This document shows positions 1,429 through 8,634 of a stretch of DNA of 10,732 nucleotides, piece by piece; position 1 is the first letter of the stretch; every line of letters starts with the position of its first letter. This DNA is from Armatimonadota bacterium (GTDB lineage Bacteria; Sysuimicrobiota; Sysuimicrobiia; Sysuimicrobiales; JACQTN01). Below the pieces are notes generated by a model. That model was given only the letters and a program-made list of their open reading frames with translations, did no database searches and was not told the origin of the DNA. The stretch covers positions 1 through 10,732 of the forward strand of contig JACQTN010000080.1 in the NCBI GenBank assembly GCA_016210785.1, read 5' to 3'. The position numbers were made by a program, and so were the translations under genes.

Positions 1429-2760
1429 ATGAGCGATCACTCGACGGTGCAGGCGCCCGCGCTGGCCGGCTTCACCCGCGAGGCCGTGGAGGCTCTCTCT
1501 GCGCGCATGGGAGAGCCCGGGTGGGCGCTGGAACAGCGCCTGGCGGCGTTTGCAGCCTTTGAAGCCCTGCCCATGCCGACGGTGCACGATGAGGGGTGGC
1601 GCAAGACCGACCTGAGCGGCCTGCGCCTGGGCAGCCTGCGGCCGTTTGCGGAGCCGGACGGACGGGCCGCGCTGCCGGCGCAGGTCTCCGCCTGGCTGGA
1701 GGCGGCGGGGGCTCGCGCCGGCTTCCTCCTGCAGCGGGACTCCCTGACGGTGCAGCGCGACCTGGACGGCGCCCTGCGGCGCAAGGGGGTCATCTTCACC
1801 GATCTGGACGCGGCGGTGCGCGAGCACGCCGGTCTGTTGCGCGAGCACCTGCACACCTGCGTCCGCCCCGACGAGATGAAGCTGCACGCCCTGCACGCCG
1901 CGTTTCGGAGCGGCGGCACCTTCCTGTACGTCCCGCGCGGCGTGGAGGTGGAGGTGCCGCTGCTCTCCCACGCGTGGATCGACACGGAGGGCGCGGCCGT
2001 CTTCCCCCATACCCTGGTGCTGGCGGAGTCCGGCAGCAAGGTCACCCTCATCGACGCGTACCGCTCGGCGGAGGGTCAGGCGCAGACCCTGGCCGTGCCG
2101 GTGGTGGAACTGATCCTGCGGGACGGCAGCACCGTGCGCTACGTGAACCACCAGGACTGGAGTCGCCACGTCTGGCAGGTGGGCGTCATCCGGGCGCTGT
2201 TGGAGCGGGACACCACGGTCAATAGCCTGGTGATCGCCTTTGGCGCGCAACTGATGCGCCTGGGCGTGGAGGCGCTGCTGCGGGGCTCCGGCGCCACCTC
2301 CGAGATGCTGGGCGTGTTCTTCGGGGACAGGCGGCAGCACTACGACTTCCAGACGCTGCAGGAGCACGTCGCCACCAGCACCACCAGCAACCTGCTCTAC
2401 AAGGGCGCCCTCACCGACCAGGCACGCTCGGTCTTCTCGGGCATGATCCGGGCGCACTACGGTGCCCAGAAGACCAATGCCTTCCAGATCAACCGCAACC
2501 TCATCCTCTCCGAGCAGGCCAAGGCGGACAGCATGCCCAAGCTGGAGATCATGGCCAACGACCTGCGCTGCACCCACGGCGCCTCGGTGAGCCGGCTGGA
2601 CGAGGAGCACATCTTCTACCTGCGCAGCCGCGGGCTGACCCGGGTGCAGGCGGTGAGGATGATCGTGGAGGGCTTCTTCTCCGACGTCCTGGATCGCATC
2701 CCCCTGCCGTACATCCGGGAGGCGCTGGAGCGCGAGATCGCGGCCAAGATGAGAGTCTAA
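1429..2760 (+). CDS. sufD: SufD, Fe-S cluster assembly protein
   Basis: A complete 443-residue SufB/SufD-family protein and partner of SufB in the SufBC2D scaffold. The C-terminal beta-helix domain carries LYKGALTDQARSVFSGMI and CTHGASVSRLDEEHIFYL. His383 in CTHGAS (codon 2575-2577) aligns with the E. coli SufD His360 that helps bind the nascent cluster at the SufB-SufD interface. Compared with SufB it lacks the EGCTAP cysteine, as expected for SufD. The ATG at 1429 is chosen because GGAGGAG (1419-1425) precedes it closely and the family N-terminus fits. It lies 103 bp after sufB and 70 bp before the Rieske gene on the same strand, so it is probably in one transcript with them. A long minus-strand open frame lies over it, but that is a high-GC shadow. 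Confidence 0.96.
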   Translation: MSDHSTVQAPALAGFTREAVEALSARMGEPGWALEQRLAAFAAFEALPMPTVHDEGWRKTDLSGLRLGSLRPFAEPDGRAALPAQVSAWLEAAGARAGFLLQRDSLTVQRDLDGALRRKGVIFTDLDAAVREHAGLLREHLHTCVRPDEMKLHALHAAFRSGGTFLYVPRGVEVEVPLLSHAWIDTEGAAVFPHTLVLAESGSKVTLIDAYRSAEGQAQTLAVPVVELILRDGSTVRYVNHQDWSRHVWQVGVIRALLERDTTVNSLVIAFGAQLMRLGVEALLRGSGATSEMLGVFFGDRRQHYDFQTLQEHVATSTTSNLLYKGALTDQARSVFSGMIRAHYGAQKTNAFQINRNLILSEQAKADSMPKLEIMANDLRCTHGASVSRLDEEHIFYLRSRGLTRVQAVRMIVEGFFSDVLDRIPLPYIREALEREIAAKMRV

Positions 2761-2830
2761 GCTAAGAAGCTGTGTGAGAAATGCCAAACCAGTTGACACC
2801 CTAGTGGAGAGGAGCGGAGCCTAGCCTCGC

Positions 2831-3175
2831 ATGGCAGAGTTCGTGCGCGTGGCAACCACAGACGAGGTGCCGCCGGGCGCCGCGAAGGTGGTGGAGGTCG
2901 CGGGTGAGCGGATCGCCCTGTTCAATCTCGGCGGGACTGTCTACGCCATCCACGACACCTGCACTCACGAGGAGGCCTCGCTGGCCGAGGGCGACCTGTA
3001 CGGGGAGGTGGTGGCCTGTCCCAAGCACGGGTCGCGGTTCCACGTTCCCTCGGGGCGCGTGCTGTCGCTGCCGGCGGTGAAGTCGGTGGCGGTGTACCCG
3101 GTGAAGGTCGAGGGGGCCGACATTTACGTCTCGCCGGAGGGACAGGTGGCCAAGGCGAAGCCGCACCGGCGCTAG
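2831..3175 (+). CDS. Rieske [2Fe-2S] ferredoxin-like protein of the suf operon
   Basis: A 114-residue small Rieske protein of the NirD/dioxygenase-ferredoxin type. Both ligand motifs are visible: Cys44-x-His46 (CTHEEASLAEG) and Cys63-x-x-His66 (CPKHGSRF), which bind the [2Fe-2S] cluster with two Cys and two His. There is no signal peptide or membrane anchor, so it should be cytosolic. In many actinobacterial suf operons a gene of this kind sits directly after sufD, and the same position here suggests an electron-transfer role in cluster assembly or repair. That role is inferred from neighbourhood and is not proven for the family. The ATG is preceded by a purine-rich AGGAGCGGAG (2810-2819) at a somewhat long spacing of 11 nt. 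In the actinobacterial order sufC would follow next; here a regulatory region follows instead. Confidence 0.9.
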   Translation: MAEFVRVATTDEVPPGAAKVVEVAGERIALFNLGGTVYAIHDTCTHEEASLAEGDLYGEVVACPKHGSRFHVPSGRVLSLPAVKSVAVYPVKVEGADIYVSPEGQVAKAKPHRR

Positions 3176-3216
3176 GATCCCTCTTACCCCTCTCCCCCGG
3201 GGCGCCGTGGGTACGA

Positions 3217-3287
3217 TGAGCGCGGTAGGGTGGAGCATGTTGCACGAATGTGGAACGTGCCGCCGCGACGTCGGTGAGCGCGGTAGG
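3217..3287 (+). repeat. Two spaced copies of a 13-bp repeat
   Basis: TGAGCGCGGTAGG occurs at 3217-3229 and again at 3275-3287, 58 bp apart. The flanks are loosely similar (TGG/GC followed by TGCAC and GAACG). A shorter GGTAGGGTG, matching 3224-3232, recurs at 3321-3329. No protein is encoded here. It may be a decayed tandem duplication or a pair of binding sites upstream of the sufS promoter. Confidence 0.45.
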
Positions 3288-3356
3288 ATGGCGCGCTCTG
3301 CACAGACGTCGAACGAACAGGGTAGGGTGCGGGGGGAACTGGCTGCCGGACAGCGT

Positions 3357-3386
3357 TTGACACTGCGGCACGGGGTATGCTATAGT
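3357..3386 (+). promoter_or_regulatory. Sigma70-type promoter for sufS-sufU
   Basis: A perfect -35 box TTGACA (3357-3362) and a -10 box TATAGT (3381-3386) are separated by 18 bp. An A at 3393-3394 would be the predicted start of transcription, about 20 nt before the SAM-I aptamer. This is the clearest promoter in the window. It would drive sufS-sufU independently of the sufB-sufD-Rieske transcript. Confidence 0.75.
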
Positions 3387-3413
3387 GCCTCCAACAATTG
3401 AATATCCTGGATT

Positions 3414-3571
3414 CTCTTATCCAGAGAGGCTGAGGGACGGGCCCAATGACGCCCGGCAACCTGTCCGGCTGCGTCCGGATGACGGTGCCAACTCCCGCGG
3501 AATCCCGGGGCCTCCGGAAAATTCGCGGCGTGAATTTTCTGGGGTGAAAATCCAATTCCGGAAGATAAGAG
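3414..3571 (+). promoter_or_regulatory. SAM-I (S-box) riboswitch aptamer
   Basis: The conserved SAM-I core is nearly complete: TTATCCAGAGAGG, GAGGGACGGGCCCAATGA, GCCCGGCAACC, GGTGCCAACTCC and, at the end, GATAAGAG. The helices can be drawn. P1 is CTCTTAT 3414-3420 with ATAAGAG 3565-3571 (7 perfect pairs). The P2 base is AGG 3427-3429 with CCT 3460-3462. The P2 upper stem is CGGGC 3438-3442 with GCCCG 3451-3455. P3 is TCCGG 3464-3468 with CCGGA 3475-3479. P4 is 3514-3524 with 3532-3542. SAM-I RNAs bind S-adenosylmethionine and normally switch off methionine and cysteine genes. Here the next gene is a cysteine desulfurase. Confidence 0.96.
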
Positions 3572-3593
3572 GTTTGCCGGCCGGCAACCCCTC
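3569..3593 (+). promoter_or_regulatory. Predicted antiterminator of the SAM-I switch
   Basis: GGTT 3571-3574 can pair with AACC 3586-3589, continued by GC 3576-3577 with GC 3584-3585. An alternative register pairs GAGG 3569-3572 with CCTC 3590-3593. This hairpin uses the 3' strand of P1 (3565-3571) and the 5' arm of the terminator (3586-3594), so it cannot coexist with either. That gives the usual logic of an OFF switch: without SAM the antiterminator forms, and with SAM P1 closes and the terminator forms. Confidence 0.65.
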
Positions 3594-3616
3594 CGAGGAA
3601 TTGGAGGGGTTTTTTT
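3586..3616 (+). terminator. Intrinsic terminator of the SAM-I riboswitch
   Basis: The 9-bp stem AACCCCTCC (3586-3594) / GGAGGGGTT (3603-3611) has an 8-nt loop and is followed by seven T (3610-3616). It lies 15 nt after the aptamer P1 and about 100 nt before the sufS start, so it acts as an attenuator rather than an end-of-operon terminator. Confidence 0.92.
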
Positions 3617-3716
3617 GTCCTCCACCGGAGCGCCTGAACGCGCCGGACCGGCCCATCAACAGCGTCCGGCGCACGCGACTTCGGGCGCCACGGCGCGGGA
3701 GCGGAAGGGGAAGAGC

Positions 3717-4985
3717 ATGGGACTGAGCGCAAGGGTGCGGGATGAGTTCCCTCTGCTGGGGCAGAGTGCGCACGGCAAGCCCATCGTCTACCTGGACAGC
3801 GCCGCCACCTCGCAGAAGCCGCGGGAGGTGATCGACGCCCTGGTGCGCTACTACGAGGAGTACAACGCCAACGTGCACCGGGGCATCTACGCCATCGCGG
3901 AGAAGGCCACCCTGGCCTATGAAGAGGCCCGCGGCAAGGTGGCCGGATTCATCAACGCCCGCCGGCCGGAGGAGGTGGTCTTCACCCGCGGGACCACCGA
4001 GGCCATCAACTTGGTGGCCTACGCCTGGGGGCTGCACTCGCTCCGGGCCGGGGACGAGATCATCCTCACCACCATGGAGCACCACAGCAACCTGGTGCCC
4101 TGGCAGCTCATCGCCGGAATGACCGGCGCCCGCCTCAAGTTCTGGGACTTCGACGGCGAGGGGAAGATCAGCTTGGAGGAGCTGGACCGCCTGCTGACCG
4201 GGCGCACGCGGATGGTGGCGCTGGCCCACCAGTCCAACGTGCTGGGCACCTTTAACCCGGTGGCGGAGGCAGCGCGCCGCGCCCGCGCCGCGGGCGCCCT
4301 GGTGCTGGTGGACGCGGCGCAGAGCGTGCCTCACATGCCGGTCGACGTGCAGCAACTCGGCGCCGACTTCGTCGCCTTCAGCGGCCACAAGATGTGCGGG
4401 CCCACCGGCATCGGCGCCCTGTGGGCCCGGTACGAGCACCTGGAGGCGCTGCAGCCATTCCACGGCGGCGGGGAGATGATCATGCTGGTGGAGCTGGACC
4501 GGTCCACCTACAAGGAGCCGCCGTGGAAGTTCGAGGCGGGCACGCCCAACATCGCCGGGGCGATCGTGTGGGGTGCGGCGGTGGACTACCTGACCCGCAT
4601 CGGCATGGAGGCCATCCGTGCCCACGAACAGCAGTTGACGGGATACGCGCTGGTCCAGCTCCAGGAGATCAAGGGCCTGCGCATCCACGGGCCGAAGAAC
4701 CCGGCCGAGCGCGGGGGCGCCATCGCCTTTTCCATGGACGGTGTTCACCCGCACGACATCGCCCAGGTCCTGGACCAGGAGGGGATCTGCGTGCGCGCCG
4801 GCCACCACTGCACCCAGCCGCTGCACCGGCGGCTCGGCGTGGCGGCTACGGTGCGGGCGAGCCTGTACCTGTATAATACTGCTGACGACATCGACGCCCT
4901 GGTGCGGGGGCTGGACAAGGTGCTGGCCTACTTCGCTCCGTCCCGCCGCTCCGGGGTAGGGGCGGAGGGCCGACGTGGCGCTTGA
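3717..4985 (+). CDS. sufS: SufS, type II cysteine desulfurase
   Basis: A 422-residue PLP enzyme that takes sulfur from L-cysteine as an enzyme persulfide, leaving alanine, and passes it to SufU. Visible motifs are TTMEHHSN (His122 stacks on PLP), the PLP-binding Lys225 in SGHK, and the catalytic Cys365 in RAGHHCTQPL, the signature of the group II (SufS) class. The ATG at 3717 is preferred over the TTG at 3615. It follows a purine-rich GGAAGGGGAAGAG (3702-3714), family homology begins just after it, and 3615 falls inside the terminator T-tract. The gene is downstream of a SAM-I riboswitch and terminator, so expression should fall when SAM is abundant. Its end overlaps sufU by 11 bp, which implies coupled translation. 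A short Arg/Gly-rich tail follows the family core. Confidence 0.96.
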   Translation: MGLSARVRDEFPLLGQSAHGKPIVYLDSAATSQKPREVIDALVRYYEEYNANVHRGIYAIAEKATLAYEEARGKVAGFINARRPEEVVFTRGTTEAINLVAYAWGLHSLRAGDEIILTTMEHHSNLVPWQLIAGMTGARLKFWDFDGEGKISLEELDRLLTGRTRMVALAHQSNVLGTFNPVAEAARRARAAGALVLVDAAQSVPHMPVDVQQLGADFVAFSGHKMCGPTGIGALWARYEHLEALQPFHGGGEMIMLVELDRSTYKEPPWKFEAGTPNIAGAIVWGAAVDYLTRIGMEAIRAHEQQLTGYALVQLQEIKGLRIHGPKNPAERGGAIAFSMDGVHPHDIAQVLDQEGICVRAGHHCTQPLHRRLGVAATVRASLYLYNTADDIDALVRGLDKVLAYFAPSRRSGVGAEGRRGA

Positions 4986-5436
4986 CGATCTCTACCGGGA
5001 GGTCATCCTCGACCACTACTCTCACCCCCGCAATCGGGGGGCGCTGGACCCGGCGGACATCAAAGTGGAAGGGGCCAACCCCCTGTGCGGGGATGAGCTG
5101 GCCTTCTACCTGCGGGTGGCGGACGGCCGGGTCAGCGAGGTGCGTTTCGAAGGACACGGGTGCTCCATCAGCCAGGCCTCCGCATCCATGATGACGGAGC
5201 AGATCCTGGGCAAGACGCTGGAGGAGGCGCGCGGGCTCATCGAGACGTTCAAGGCGATGATGCGCGGCCAGGACCCGCGGGAGGACCGCGACGTCGGCGA
5301 CCTGGTGGCGCTGCAGGGGGTGCGGAAGTTCCCGGTGCGCATTAAGTGCGCCACGCTGGCGTGGGTCGCGCTGCAGCAGGGGCTGGAGGAATACGAGGGG
5401 AAGAAGGCGGAGGCGAAGGCGACCACCGAGGAGTAG
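4975..5436 (+). CDS. sufU: SufU, zinc-dependent sulfur acceptor
   Basis: A 153-residue IscU-fold protein of the SufU type. In Gram-positive-type SUF systems SufU receives persulfide sulfur from SufS. Cys38 and Asp40 (PLCGD), Cys63 (HGCSIS) and Cys125 (IKCATLAW) match the zinc ligands and acceptor residues Cys41, Asp43, Cys66 and Cys128 of Bacillus subtilis SufU, with the same spacing. The insert between the second and third cysteine regions (GQDPREDRDVGDLVALQGV) is typical of SufU and not of IscU. The start is GTG at 4975 with GGAGGG (4964-4969) 5 nt upstream, inside the end of sufS. The last 15 residues (YEGKKAEAKATTEE-type tail) lie beyond the conserved fold, and their coding sequence is duplicated at 6035-6079 downstream of the next two genes. 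Confidence 0.95.
   Translation: MALDDLYREVILDHYSHPRNRGALDPADIKVEGANPLCGDELAFYLRVADGRVSEVRFEGHGCSISQASASMMTEQILGKTLEEARGLIETFKAMMRGQDPREDRDVGDLVALQGVRKFPVRIKCATLAWVALQQGLEEYEGKKAEAKATTEE
5392..5436 (+). repeat. Direct repeat copy 1 (3' end of sufU)
   Basis: This 45-bp segment ends exactly at the sufU stop codon and matches 6035-6079 at 38 of 45 positions without gaps. The last 25 bp match at 24 of 25. Both copies are read in the same codon phase and end in TAG. The two copies bracket the DUF433/DUF5615 cassette. Confidence 0.9.
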
Positions 5437-5445
5437 GCTGTTGGA

Positions 5446-5460
5446 CGCCTGCGCCAGGCG
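5446..5460 (+). other. Short hairpin after sufU
   Basis: CGCCTG (5446-5451), loop CGC, CAGGCG (5455-5460) forms a 6-bp perfect stem 9 bp after the sufU stop. No T-run follows, so it is a weak terminator candidate at best. It may be mRNA 3'-end structure. Confidence 0.3.
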
Positions 5461-5502
5461 CCGGCAGCCTTGGCGCGCGCGGGTGGAGAAAGGGTGACGT
5501 TG

Positions 5503-5712
5503 ATGGGTAAGTGGATCGTGGCAGATGCTGAACATCTCGGGGGGAAGCCGAGGATCGCCGGTACGCGCATCTCCGTCGAGTTCTTGCTCGAATCCCTAGC
5601 CGCCGGCATGACCATTTCTGAACTGGTGCGGGAGTACCCGTCTCTCACCGAGGAGGCAGTCAGAGGAGCGCTTGAGGAACTGGCCCACTCGGACCTCACC
5701 ACCGTCGCATGA
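5503..5712 (+). CDS. DUF433 (VapB45-like) antitoxin
   Basis: A 69-residue protein with the DUF433 pattern: GGKPRIAGTRISV at residues 13-25, then a helix-turn-helix-like region (LLESLAAGMTISELVREYP) and a C-terminal helix SLTEEAVRGALEEL. DUF433 proteins are commonly the antitoxin, and likely DNA-binding partner, of DUF5615 PIN-like toxins, as in Mycobacterium VapB45-VapC45. The ATG at 5503 is chosen because GGAGAAAGGG (5485-5494) lies 8 nt upstream; earlier GTG/TTG starts lack such support. The stop overlaps the toxin start as ATGA (5709-5712), the usual coupling of such pairs. It lies between the two copies of the sufU 3' end. The family call is confident; antitoxin function is inferred from family and context. 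Confidence 0.87.
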   Translation: MGKWIVADAEHLGGKPRIAGTRISVEFLLESLAAGMTISELVREYPSLTEEAVRGALEELAHSDLTTVA

Positions 5713-6079
5713 GGATTCTCCTCGACGAGAACCTCCCCGATCGGTTCTCCACGCGCTTCGCCAACTCGGACACACGGTCGACTCCGTCGCCAGCCTCGGG
5801 CTCAAAGGTGTCGACAACGGTAGCCTGTACCGACTCGCGGAATCCTACGACATCTTGTTCACCAAGGATAGGGAATTTGCCGCCAACACCAGGGCCTACA
5901 CGTCGGGGTCCGTCAAGATCATCCGGGTCACGATTCCCCAGCAACCCGGCCAGCGATTCGCCAGAGTATTCATAGACGCATTCAGCCGCACGGACTGGTC
6001 CGTAGTCACCACAGGTAGTGACTGGCCGCAGGACTACGAAGGGAAGAGCCCCGCGGCGAAGGCGACCACGGAGGAGTAG
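5709..6079 (+). pseudogene. DUF5615 PIN-like toxin, frameshifted
   Basis: The frame starting at ATG 5709 gives the family N-terminus MRILLDENLPDRF, with the acidic pair Asp6-Glu7. It then loses similarity. The rest of the domain continues in the -1 frame from about 5747 (LHALRQLGHTVDSVASLGLKG, later FTKDREFAAN) to the TAG at 6077-6079. Restoring one C at TTC/TCC (5745-5750) would read DRFLHALRQL and give a single protein of about 123 residues. Family members are PIN-like nucleases proposed to act as RNases. Read as given, the toxin is broken, but one missing base in a short run of pyrimidines could also be a sequencing error. I see no standard slippery heptamer for programmed frameshifting. 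The last 15 codons (YEGKSPAAKATTEE tail) are the repeat of the sufU end and are not expected of the toxin family. Confidence 0.82.
6035..6079 (+). repeat. Direct repeat copy 2 (3' end of toxin frame)
   Basis: The second copy of the 45-bp sufU 3' end, 643 bp downstream of the first. It differs at 7 positions: six lie in the first 20 bp, mostly in a block at 6048-6054, and one is near the end. It supplies the last 15 codons and the stop of the toxin reading frame, and ends 2 bp before the stop codon of the convergent aldo/keto reductase. Confidence 0.9.
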
Positions 6080-6081
6080 CC

Positions 6082-7062
6082 CTATTCGTTCGCCGGACTT
6101 GCCGCGCGAAGCTCGGCGATCAGCCGCGCTAATGCCGCCATCTGTTCTGGCGCGGATCGCGACCGTGCCACGGCCTCGGCGTTCCCACGGACTCGTTCTG
6201 GCCGCCGCGACGAGAATAGCACGCCACCCTGCGGGTTCGCCATGACGACTTGCTGCAGAAGCAGCGTTGCCAGCACGTCGCGGTTCGAGCAGTCAGCCTG
6301 CAGGGCTTCAGACCACCGGCGGGTCCGCGCGGGGGAAGCTGTAACATAAGTCCAGAGAGGGGCGAGATCACGGGCGAGTACCGAATGCGTGATGGTCGCG
6401 CGCCCGTGGCCGCCGGGCAATGCTCCAAGTGTTGGCTCGATGAAGCTGCGCGGAATCTGGATCACGGTGGGGAACCAGTGTCCTCGGGAAAGTAGATCCG
6501 CGGTTGTTGCCGGGTCCGTTGCCACGCCCACGTAGCGGGCCATGCCCGTTCGGACGCAGGCGTTCAAGGACTCAAGGAGTTCCTCCGAGATGTCGTGGAC
6601 GCGGCACTCGTGGAGCAGGAGAATGTCCACGAACTGTGTGTTCAGCTCCCGCAGGCTCGTCTCAAGGCTTGCCCGCGCGTCGGCGACACTGAACCGCCCC
6701 CCGCTGATGAGCGCGTCTGCTCCGCGCCTGACCTGACGTCTGAGCCATGGACTGGTACCCACCACTCTCCGGGCTACCGCGCGCGCCGCGGTCAGCCAGG
6801 TGGACCGTGGGGGGGGCGCGAGCCCGACCTTCGTGGTCACCGTGACTTGGTCGCGCCGGCCGGTCAGGAACCGCCCCAGGACGCGTTCCGCCTCGCCGAG
6901 CCCGTACACGCGCGCGGTATCGAAGTGGGTGATGCCCGCATCGAATGCCGCGTGGAGGAGCCGCAGCTTCTCGCGGTCGCCGAGCTGGCTACCGAAGGAA
7001 GCGCAGCCGTAGCCGAGCACCGAGACTTGAAGATCGGTCCCTGGCAGCACGATCCGTTTCAT
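6082..7062 (-). CDS. Aldo/keto reductase
   Basis: A 326-residue member of the aldo/keto reductase superfamily, NAD(P)H-dependent (beta/alpha)8-barrel oxidoreductases of the cytosol. The catalytic tetrad is visible: Asp48 (THFDTA), Tyr53 (RVYGLGEAE), Lys78 (TTKVGL) and His151 (LLLHEC). The N-terminus (LPGTDLQVSVLGYGCASFG) and GITHFDTARVYG are typical of the family. The ATG at 7062 overlaps the stop of the upstream GMC oxidoreductase (ATGA). It has no Shine-Dalgarno of its own, so it is probably translated by coupling. A longer frame upstream to 7287 is only the shadow of the oxidoreductase. The substrate is unknown; pairing with a GMC enzyme suggests sugar or alcohol/aldehyde chemistry on a shared compound. 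It converges on the toxin-antitoxin cassette, with 2 bp between stops. Confidence 0.9.
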   Translation of the reverse strand: MKRIVLPGTDLQVSVLGYGCASFGSQLGDREKLRLLHAAFDAGITHFDTARVYGLGEAERVLGRFLTGRRDQVTVTTKVGLAPPPRSTWLTAARAVARRVVGTSPWLRRQVRRGADALISGGRFSVADARASLETSLRELNTQFVDILLLHECRVHDISEELLESLNACVRTGMARYVGVATDPATTADLLSRGHWFPTVIQIPRSFIEPTLGALPGGHGRATITHSVLARDLAPLWTYVTASPARTRRWSEALQADCSNRDVLATLLLQQVVMANPQGGVLFSSRRPERVRGNAEAVARSRSAPEQMAALARLIAELRAASPANE

Positions 7063-8634
7063 CGCAGCACGGTCGTCTTCAGGTGGTCGGCGAGACGGAT
7101 CGCCAGGGCCAGGATGGTCAGGGTCGGATTCGCATATCCCGAGGTGGGGAAGACCGAGCTGCCCGCCACAAACAGGTTGGCGACGCCGTGAACGCGGCAG
7201 TCGGCATCCACGACGCCCGCTTTCGGGCTGGAAGCCATGCGCGTGGTGCCGATGTGATGGAAAGTGTCGCTGAGGCGCCGGGTCCACTCACTCCCACTAT
7301 TTGTGAGCCACTCGTCCCGCTGGACTCCCGCCAGGTTTAGGCGCGCGAATTCTGCGTCGACGGCGCGGACGAACGCTTCCATCGTCCGTCGTTCCAGGTC
7401 CGTCACCCGCCAGTCGAGCCGGGCGAAGGGAACGCCGAAAGCATCTTTCGTGTCCGCGAGCATGATCCGGCTGTCTGGATTCGGTGCCTGCTCGCAGATG
7501 GCGAGAAGGTACACTTCCCGCGGAAGCTCGGTGTGCGATCGTCCCCGGACATACTGCCGCACGAGCCGCAGCGCCGGGAAGATCCCGGAGCACGTACCGG
7601 AGGTCCCGCCACACGCGCGTGGACAACCTCCGGGCGCGCAGGCTACGGGCGAGCCGCAGGGCGGCCTCGGCCCCCGAATCGTCCGGGAACTGGTACCCGA
7701 CGTTGCCTCCACAATGGAGGAGTCCTTCTGCCTCCTGGACTCGCTCGCTCAGCCGCAGTTTGGGATAGTAGCGCACGCCGTCTCGGTAGAACACGCCGAA
7801 GACGTCTTGCAGTGGCCCCGGCTTGCCTGCCGCGATGGTGGCACACCTGCTCATCGGGTGATCCTGGAAGAAGCGCCCGACGAGATCGTGTCGGTTTCCA
7901 ACCCCGTTCGGCTCGGTGTCGTTCGACGCCAGCAGCAGGCGCGCATTCTCGATTCCGCCGCAGCAGAGTACAATTGCGCGCGCCCGCACCGAGATCCGCC
8001 GTCCTGTCAGGGTACGGGCCTCGATCACCTCAGCGAGCGCACCAGACTCATTGGTGCCAGTCCTGACCGCGGTCACATGAAACAGCGTCATGATGTTCTG
8101 GGCATTGCGGAACGCGCCTTCCAGCAGGCGACCAAAGTCCGGGCGGGGGGAGAACATGGAGAACGTCAGGTTGAGCTTCGCCGGATCAAAGTCGGGCTGG
8201 CGAACCCCCAGGAGGGTTCCGATATTCTGTGCCAACCCATCGACTGGAAGCTCCAGGAGAGCCTCCGCGCGCCCATAGTACGGGTCAATCTCCGCGCGCG
8301 TGATGGGCCAGCCGCTGTGCGGAACCCACGGCCTCTTTGAGAAGTCGATGCTGTCGAGGCGCATGCACTGACCGGGCCAGACACGAGTCGTCCCGCCGAA
8401 CCCGCGCTCGCGTCCACGCTCGGCCCCGTAGCTGGGCAGGCCAACAATCTCGACCTTGTTGAGATCATACGGCGTGCTTTCCCCGGGAGGGCCTCCACTT
8501 TCGAGGATGATGATTTCGGTCTGCGAGTTCAGGAATTCGCGGCTGAGGGCGAGGCCGGCCGCTCCTGTGCCGACGATACACAGATCTGTAGCCAGGGTGA
8601 CGTCCTGGTCTTCTTTGACGGCATCAACGAACAA
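7059..8634 (-). pseudogene. GMC-family FAD oxidoreductase, split by one extra base
   Basis: The glucose-methanol-choline family consists of FAD enzymes that oxidise alcohols or sugars. The N-terminal Rossmann motif is at residues 22-27 (VGTGAAGLA), and the middle holds GGTTRVWPGQ and CCGGIENARLLL. The C-terminal half has the catalytic-pair region: His in DTFHHIG (codons 7254-7259) and Asn in SGYANPTLTI (codon 7128-7130). The first frame runs from 8634 to about 7578 and the second from there to 7059. The switch is at a CCC run on the minus strand (7576-7578): with two C it reads RDLPALRLVRQYVRG without a break, giving about 524 residues. TTG at 8634 is taken as start because a strong GAGGGGGGAG (8641-8650) lies 6 nt upstream. 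It is either a recent pseudogene or a one-base sequence error; the rest looks undecayed. Confidence 0.85.

Follow-up and report, generated by a model that had tools for sequence, protein, structure and literature searches.

The window analysed here, 10,732 nucleotides in length, is a whole contig of a MAG (G000, contig C567) of 3.73 Mb in 616 contigs, with 72% completeness and 4% contamination. Its plus strand carries sufB (positions 3 to 1325, with the 5' end beyond the contig edge; TIGR01980, 708 bits), sufD (1429 to 2760; TIGR01981, 249 bits against a cut-off of 222) and a Rieske-type ferredoxin gene (2831 to 3175; PF00355 and synteny) of the kind that adjoins sufD and sufS in the order. 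A riboswitch follows, and then sufS, encoding a cysteine desulfurase (3717 to 4985; TIGR01979, 594 bits; 60-72% identity to order relatives), and sufU, which overlaps the end of sufS (4975 to 5436; TIGR01994, 176 bits). The four neighbours typical of a SUF system (sufB, sufD, sufS and sufU) are thus present, sufC lying beyond the window, and the switch sits inside the suf operon. An in-frame TTG at 3615 is a possible start for sufS, but the 37 full-length matches of the order begin at residues 1 to 6 of the ATG form. The closest named relatives of this sufS (61-71%) include Armatimonadetes bacterium CSP1-3, Armatimonadota SKYB51, Bacillota-labelled Centralia MAGs and ANGP1 MAGs; judged by sufS similarity, the order is thus that of the CSP1-3/ANGP1 lineage. 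A preliminary description of this DNA had placed sufS and sufU directly behind the riboswitch, in a feature ending at 3716, the base before the sufS ATG; the family models bore this out, and the ORF list of the window has no gene between the terminator and sufS.

Further downstream, the last 56 bp of sufU (5381 to 5436) recur at 6024 to 6079 with 82% identity, behind a DUF433-DUF5615 pair that we take to be toxin-antitoxin-like and whose second ORF has the same AKATTEE tail as sufU. It looks as if this pair was inserted at the sufU 3' end, duplicating that end. On the minus strand, at 7059 to 8634, a GMC oxidoreductase is split over two frames, its N- and C-terminal domains falling in separate ORFs that overlap, which is a frameshift or a sequencing error.

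The preliminary description had recognised a SAM-I aptamer with a 7-bp P1 and had proposed a search with the Rfam model. Rfam cmscan of the window returned RF00162 as the sole match over threshold, at 3414 to 3527 on the plus strand, scoring 61.2 bits where the gathering score is 44.4 (E = 1.6e-12). The 3' part of this alignment was poor, with P1 placed onto AAUUCGCG. Since P4 holds an insert of ~50 nt, and such an insert can make Rfam misplace P1, the 3' end at 3527 is misplaced. We have also used a lineage covariance model (R1) trained on 28 further SAM-I RNAs (23 of other genomes of the order, five of more distant ones), with both G000 copies left out. This model recovered a farther SAM-I held out of its training (L024, 63.9 bits) and gave the full extent of the SAM-I (S-box) aptamer as 3414 to 3571 on the plus strand (90.2 bits, E = 4.9e-19). 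P1 is formed by CUCUUAUC (3414 to 3421) and GAUAAGAG (3564 to 3571), a perfect match of 8 standard pairs, so that the aptamer was confirmed and the length given for its P1 was not.

Alignments to RF00162 and R1 revealed the P1-P4 junction with a closing P1 and the conserved core GAGGGA, GGCAACC and GGUGCCAA, which we take to be the SAM-I core motifs as read from these alignments. By eye, the P2 loop carries GG and GGUGCCAA carries CC, candidate partners for the P2-loop/J3/4 pseudoknot. Inside P4 lies an extra 13-bp hairpin (3512 to 3544, plus strand). In the second SAM-I copy of this genome, found before metK, a 12-bp hairpin of different sequence occupies the same place; the two differ in sequence and length, yet all their pairs are standard. 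Taken at the level of sequence, the riboswitch is present and looks complete. An aptamer that no longer binds SAM would turn the stretch into a translational or constitutive leader, with only a promoter and a leaky terminator. The Rfam score would fit such decay, being lower than the 73-86 bits of 37 of the 38 SAM-I copies of the order (57.3 in the remaining one, G037). However, the low value is due to the P4 insert misplacing P1, and under the lineage model all helices pair at 90.2 bits, although this model, too, scores most of the order's copies higher (mostly 93-112 bits). We consider the loss of SAM binding very unlikely.

Just upstream of the aptamer, at 3357 to 3386 on the plus strand, lies a predicted promoter, TTGACA-18-TATAGT with TG before the -10, which matches 11 of 12 consensus positions; a scan of 2700 to 5600 (2.9 kb) found this one against 0.2 expected from shuffles. 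Downstream, the preliminary description had reported an antiterminator overlapping P1 and a terminator with seven T, and both were recovered. The antiterminator (3569 to 3593, plus strand) pairs GAGG (3569 to 3572) with CCUC (3590 to 3593) and UUGCC (3574 to 3578) with GGCAA (3583 to 3587), with -11.4 kcal/mol in a 37-nt stretch without the terminator 3' arm; it has six paired bases in common with the terminator 5' arm and only three with P1. The intrinsic terminator (3586 to 3616, plus strand) has an 11-bp stem (3586 to 3611) and seven T (3610 to 3616). Scanning both strands of 2700 to 5600 gave two terminator sites against 0.9 expected, the second one on the minus strand. The same scan found no terminator between the Rieske gene and the leader, and therefore read-through transcription would also pass the attenuator.

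This is the geometry of an S-box attenuator, with an antiterminator that would exclude both P1 and the terminator, and a terminator ending in a U-run. Equilibrium folding without ligand gave -91.8 kcal/mol for P1 plus terminator and -84.5 for the antiterminator fold, 7.3 kcal/mol apart. Thus, either the switch must use folding during transcription, which is how S-box attenuators usually act, or the modelled antiterminator is incomplete. Among the 38 SAM-I leaders of the order, 24 have a GC-rich hairpin and at least five T after the aptamer (T-runs found by script, stems by eye), and the other 14 have no such T-run within the stretch inspected.

The second over-cut-off SAM-I of the genome is on contig C387 (4994 to 5148, minus strand), before a gene for an archaeal-type methionine adenosyltransferase (metK, named by family model); a third match was far below cut-off (16.5 bits). 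The stretch from 3394 to 3617 (plus strand) is homologous to this metK leader, with 199 of 230 columns identical (86-87%, E about 2e-68 to 3e-69), from eight bases after the -10 hexamer through the T-run. The two promoters match in pattern (TTGACAC...TGCTATAGT), and the terminator hairpin is the same. The leaders differ in P1, which has 6 bp at metK and 8 bp at sufS. The nearest of the 38 order leaders was that of hom in G004 (L003), which precedes what we have named from its translation homoserine dehydrogenase; it has the same aptamer type and the same AACCCCTCCGAGGAATTGGAGGGGTT terminator hairpin, but no P4 insert. The local alignment score between the two G000 leaders was 301, as against 183 and 182 to the G004 leader, which indicates that the two copies share one ancestor. 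Most simply, this would be a duplication within this lineage, by which a common kind of riboswitch was apparently recruited to a new operon. The hom match of G000 starts at query residue 50, so that its leader is out of view and a third copy may exist. The aptamer core, a P1 strand and the terminator are kept in both copies, as expected under selection.

Both cassettes adjoin an interspersed genome repeat, two units of which lie upstream of the sufS cassette (3195 to 3315, plus strand; units 3214 to 3257 and 3272 to 3315 match each other), while at metK the repeat stands between leader and gene. The unit is ~60 bp, often in tandem, with instances at 3195 to 3345 of the window, in L143-L162 and at 4841 to 4943 of L174. 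The repeat has at least 57 matches in G000 at E<=0.01 (with 40 of the 203 initial candidates scored) and none at E<=0.001 in 215 loci (1.18 Mb) outside G000.

We have then surveyed 42 relatives of the same order. The stretch before sufS was visible in 28; one locus (L061) begins just before sufS and is uninformative, eight genomes have their SAM-I on a different contig from sufS (by eye), four have no close sufS, and one has a partial sufS and no over-cut-off SAM-I. The gene order was sufD-Rieske-sufS-sufU, preceded by sufB wherever the locus extended far enough, the exceptions being L044, without a sufU match, and L061, which starts only at sufS. A named relative from the order, ANGP1 NP_6 (L070), carries two tandem sufD-Rieske pairs before sufS. 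The gap between the Rieske gene and sufS was 4-123 bp in the 28 loci showing both genes, compared with 541 bp here, and the lineage model found no riboswitch in any of these 28 gaps.

Could the leader of another gene, hom or thr as in the relatives, have been wrongly joined to sufS during assembly? The MAG is fragmented into 616 contigs, leaders are repeats, and the leader of hom itself is out of view in G000. However, the genes flanking the insert, sufD-Rieske before it and sufS-sufU after it, are the usual neighbours in their native order, which chance would have had to restore, and for this reason we regard a chimera as extremely improbable.

With Rfam, 36 of the 42 other order genomes had over-cut-off SAM-I, 38 copies in all; the lineage model found the same 38 and two weak matches (E 0.03-0.05). 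The genes after these copies were thrB (15), thrC (13, of which two rest on matches of 26 residues at contig ends), hom (4), metY (4) and metH (1), with one copy cut off by a contig end. Hence, 37 of the 38 precede threonine or methionine genes and none precedes sufS or metK. We named these downstream genes from their similarity to reference ORFs, which had themselves been presumptively identified by their translations; the names of sufS, sufU and metK come from family models. Below-cut-off SAM-I matches were not beside the best sufS match when contigs were compared by eye. Outside the order, a SAM-I in L006 (G077) precedes a protein resembling, by eye, HcyD-type homocysteine synthesis, a plausible S-box target.

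The survey was extended to further sufS loci. The lineage model gave no SAM-I at E<0.1 in 109 of them, 29 from the order with flanks of up to 1.5 kb and 80 from many phyla, Bacillota, which are rich in SAM-I, being thinly sampled. With Rfam, there was no SAM-I in 15 of these 80, nor in 40 further loci (of 60 fetched), 33 of which pass the SufS cut-off; the sets of 29 and 80 overlap in part. Between Rieske and sufS of a Chloroflexi contig (L074) there was a weak model match (17.9 bits, E 0.37), which we rejected, as Rfam searched to E 10 gave no SAM-I there. A partial match in L069 lay on the minus strand (13.2 bits, E 5.4). The main text of PMC3766115 contains 'suf', 'cysteine desulfurase', 'iscS' and 'nifS' zero times each. 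In the text of PMC2258182 that we searched, 'desulfurase', 'iscS' and 'nifS' occur zero times and 'suf' once, inside 'sufficient'; we do not thereby claim that the pairing is unpublished.

The SAM-I/sufS pairing was thus found in one MAG, the single member of its family among the genomes searched, and it may be a feature of that family only. The preliminary description had proposed SAM-I control of sufSU, and had named absence of the riboswitch before sufS in close relatives as grounds to reject it. As far as the loci allow this to be judged, that absence is what we observed in the 28 order loci. On the other side stands a complete-looking attenuator in cis with its own promoter. Such a distribution, together with the repeat beside the cassette at both loci and the other cysteine desulfurase-like genes of G000, would also suit a bystander that repeat-mediated recombination had brought into the Rieske-sufS gap, where it is tolerated; it would supply a promoter, and its SAM response would not be adaptive. 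However, after ~13% divergence since the duplication, the aptamer core, P1, antiterminator, terminator and P4 hairpin are all kept, which argues for selection, and the sufS copy has a better P1 than its metK counterpart. We consider a tolerated insertion rather unlikely, if a serious alternative.

Overall, we think it probable that the leader, equipped with its own promoter, is a SAM-I riboswitch acting by transcription attenuation, derived from a duplicated cassette and set in the middle of the suf operon, where it would gate sufSU by SAM. The cassette would have been duplicated and then inserted between the Rieske gene and sufS. In S-box RNAs, SAM stabilises P1 and frees the terminator 5' arm, and transcription stops. 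Here, with SAM bound, P1 would hold and the terminator would halt transcription before sufS, whether started at the local promoter or reading through from sufBD. When SAM is low, the antiterminator would take part of the P1 3' strand and the terminator 5' arm, and sufSU would be transcribed, together with metK. That high SAM would stop transcription before sufSU follows from the predicted anatomy. In this way, sufSU would join the SAM/methionine regulon and the upstream scaffold genes, sufBD, would remain outside.

The arrangement shares with the transcription-attenuating SAM-I RNAs of RF00162 the aptamer core, P1-P4, the choice between antiterminator and terminator, and an intrinsic terminator before the first gene. 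It differs in the extra P4 hairpin, in its position inside an operon, and in preceding sufS-sufU and not genes of methionine, cysteine, the threonine branch or SAM. The gene set is that of suf operons under IscR, SufR or Fur, which are protein sensors of iron or Fe-S acting at the operon start, whereas here the predicted sensor is an RNA for SAM in mid-operon. Given the paralogy to the metK leader, this looks like lineage-specific rewiring and not general suf control.

The benefit to the cell is the most speculative part; it could be sulfur supply for refilling methionine and SAM, or Fe-S supply matched to SAM supply. The preliminary description had treated SAM as a proxy for sulfur supply, which would be odd logic, as sulfur-poor cells would then raise cysteine breakdown. 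The usual SAM-I targets refill SAM, and on one reading SufS therefore supplies sulfur for homocysteine here, which fits SAM-I logic at least as well. We propose only tentatively, and hold it doubtful, that the cassette moved as a unit from promoter to terminator and brought SufSU into the SAM regulon, where SufSU would donate sulfur for methionine and SAM (from cysteine via persulfide to homocysteine) under the same control as SAM synthetase, the scaffold half being free of SAM control. HcyD-type homocysteine synthesis (PF01837), a possible user of SufS sulfur, had no match in the 72% complete G000. For PF01053 there were a long match, a partial one and ten weak ones; the long one came closest to methionine gamma-lyase and O-succinylhomoserine sulfhydrylase, below the cut-off in either case. 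The absence of PF01837 and the PF01053 enzyme neither prove nor exclude SufS sulfur for homocysteine. Three further matches to the SufS query in G000 (the one shown, on C292, is 33% identical) mean that SufS may not limit sulfur flow.

The locus appears to be a clear natural example of a rewired regulon: within a single genome, an expression cassette carrying a riboswitch was apparently duplicated, and one copy now separates the two halves of an operon with a conserved gene order among the relatives examined. To judge from the sequences compared, sufSU looks like a new regulon member for a known switch, gained by lineage-specific recruitment. If functional, the arrangement would tie cysteine desulfuration, through which sulfur enters Fe-S clusters and other cofactors, to the SAM level by RNA alone.
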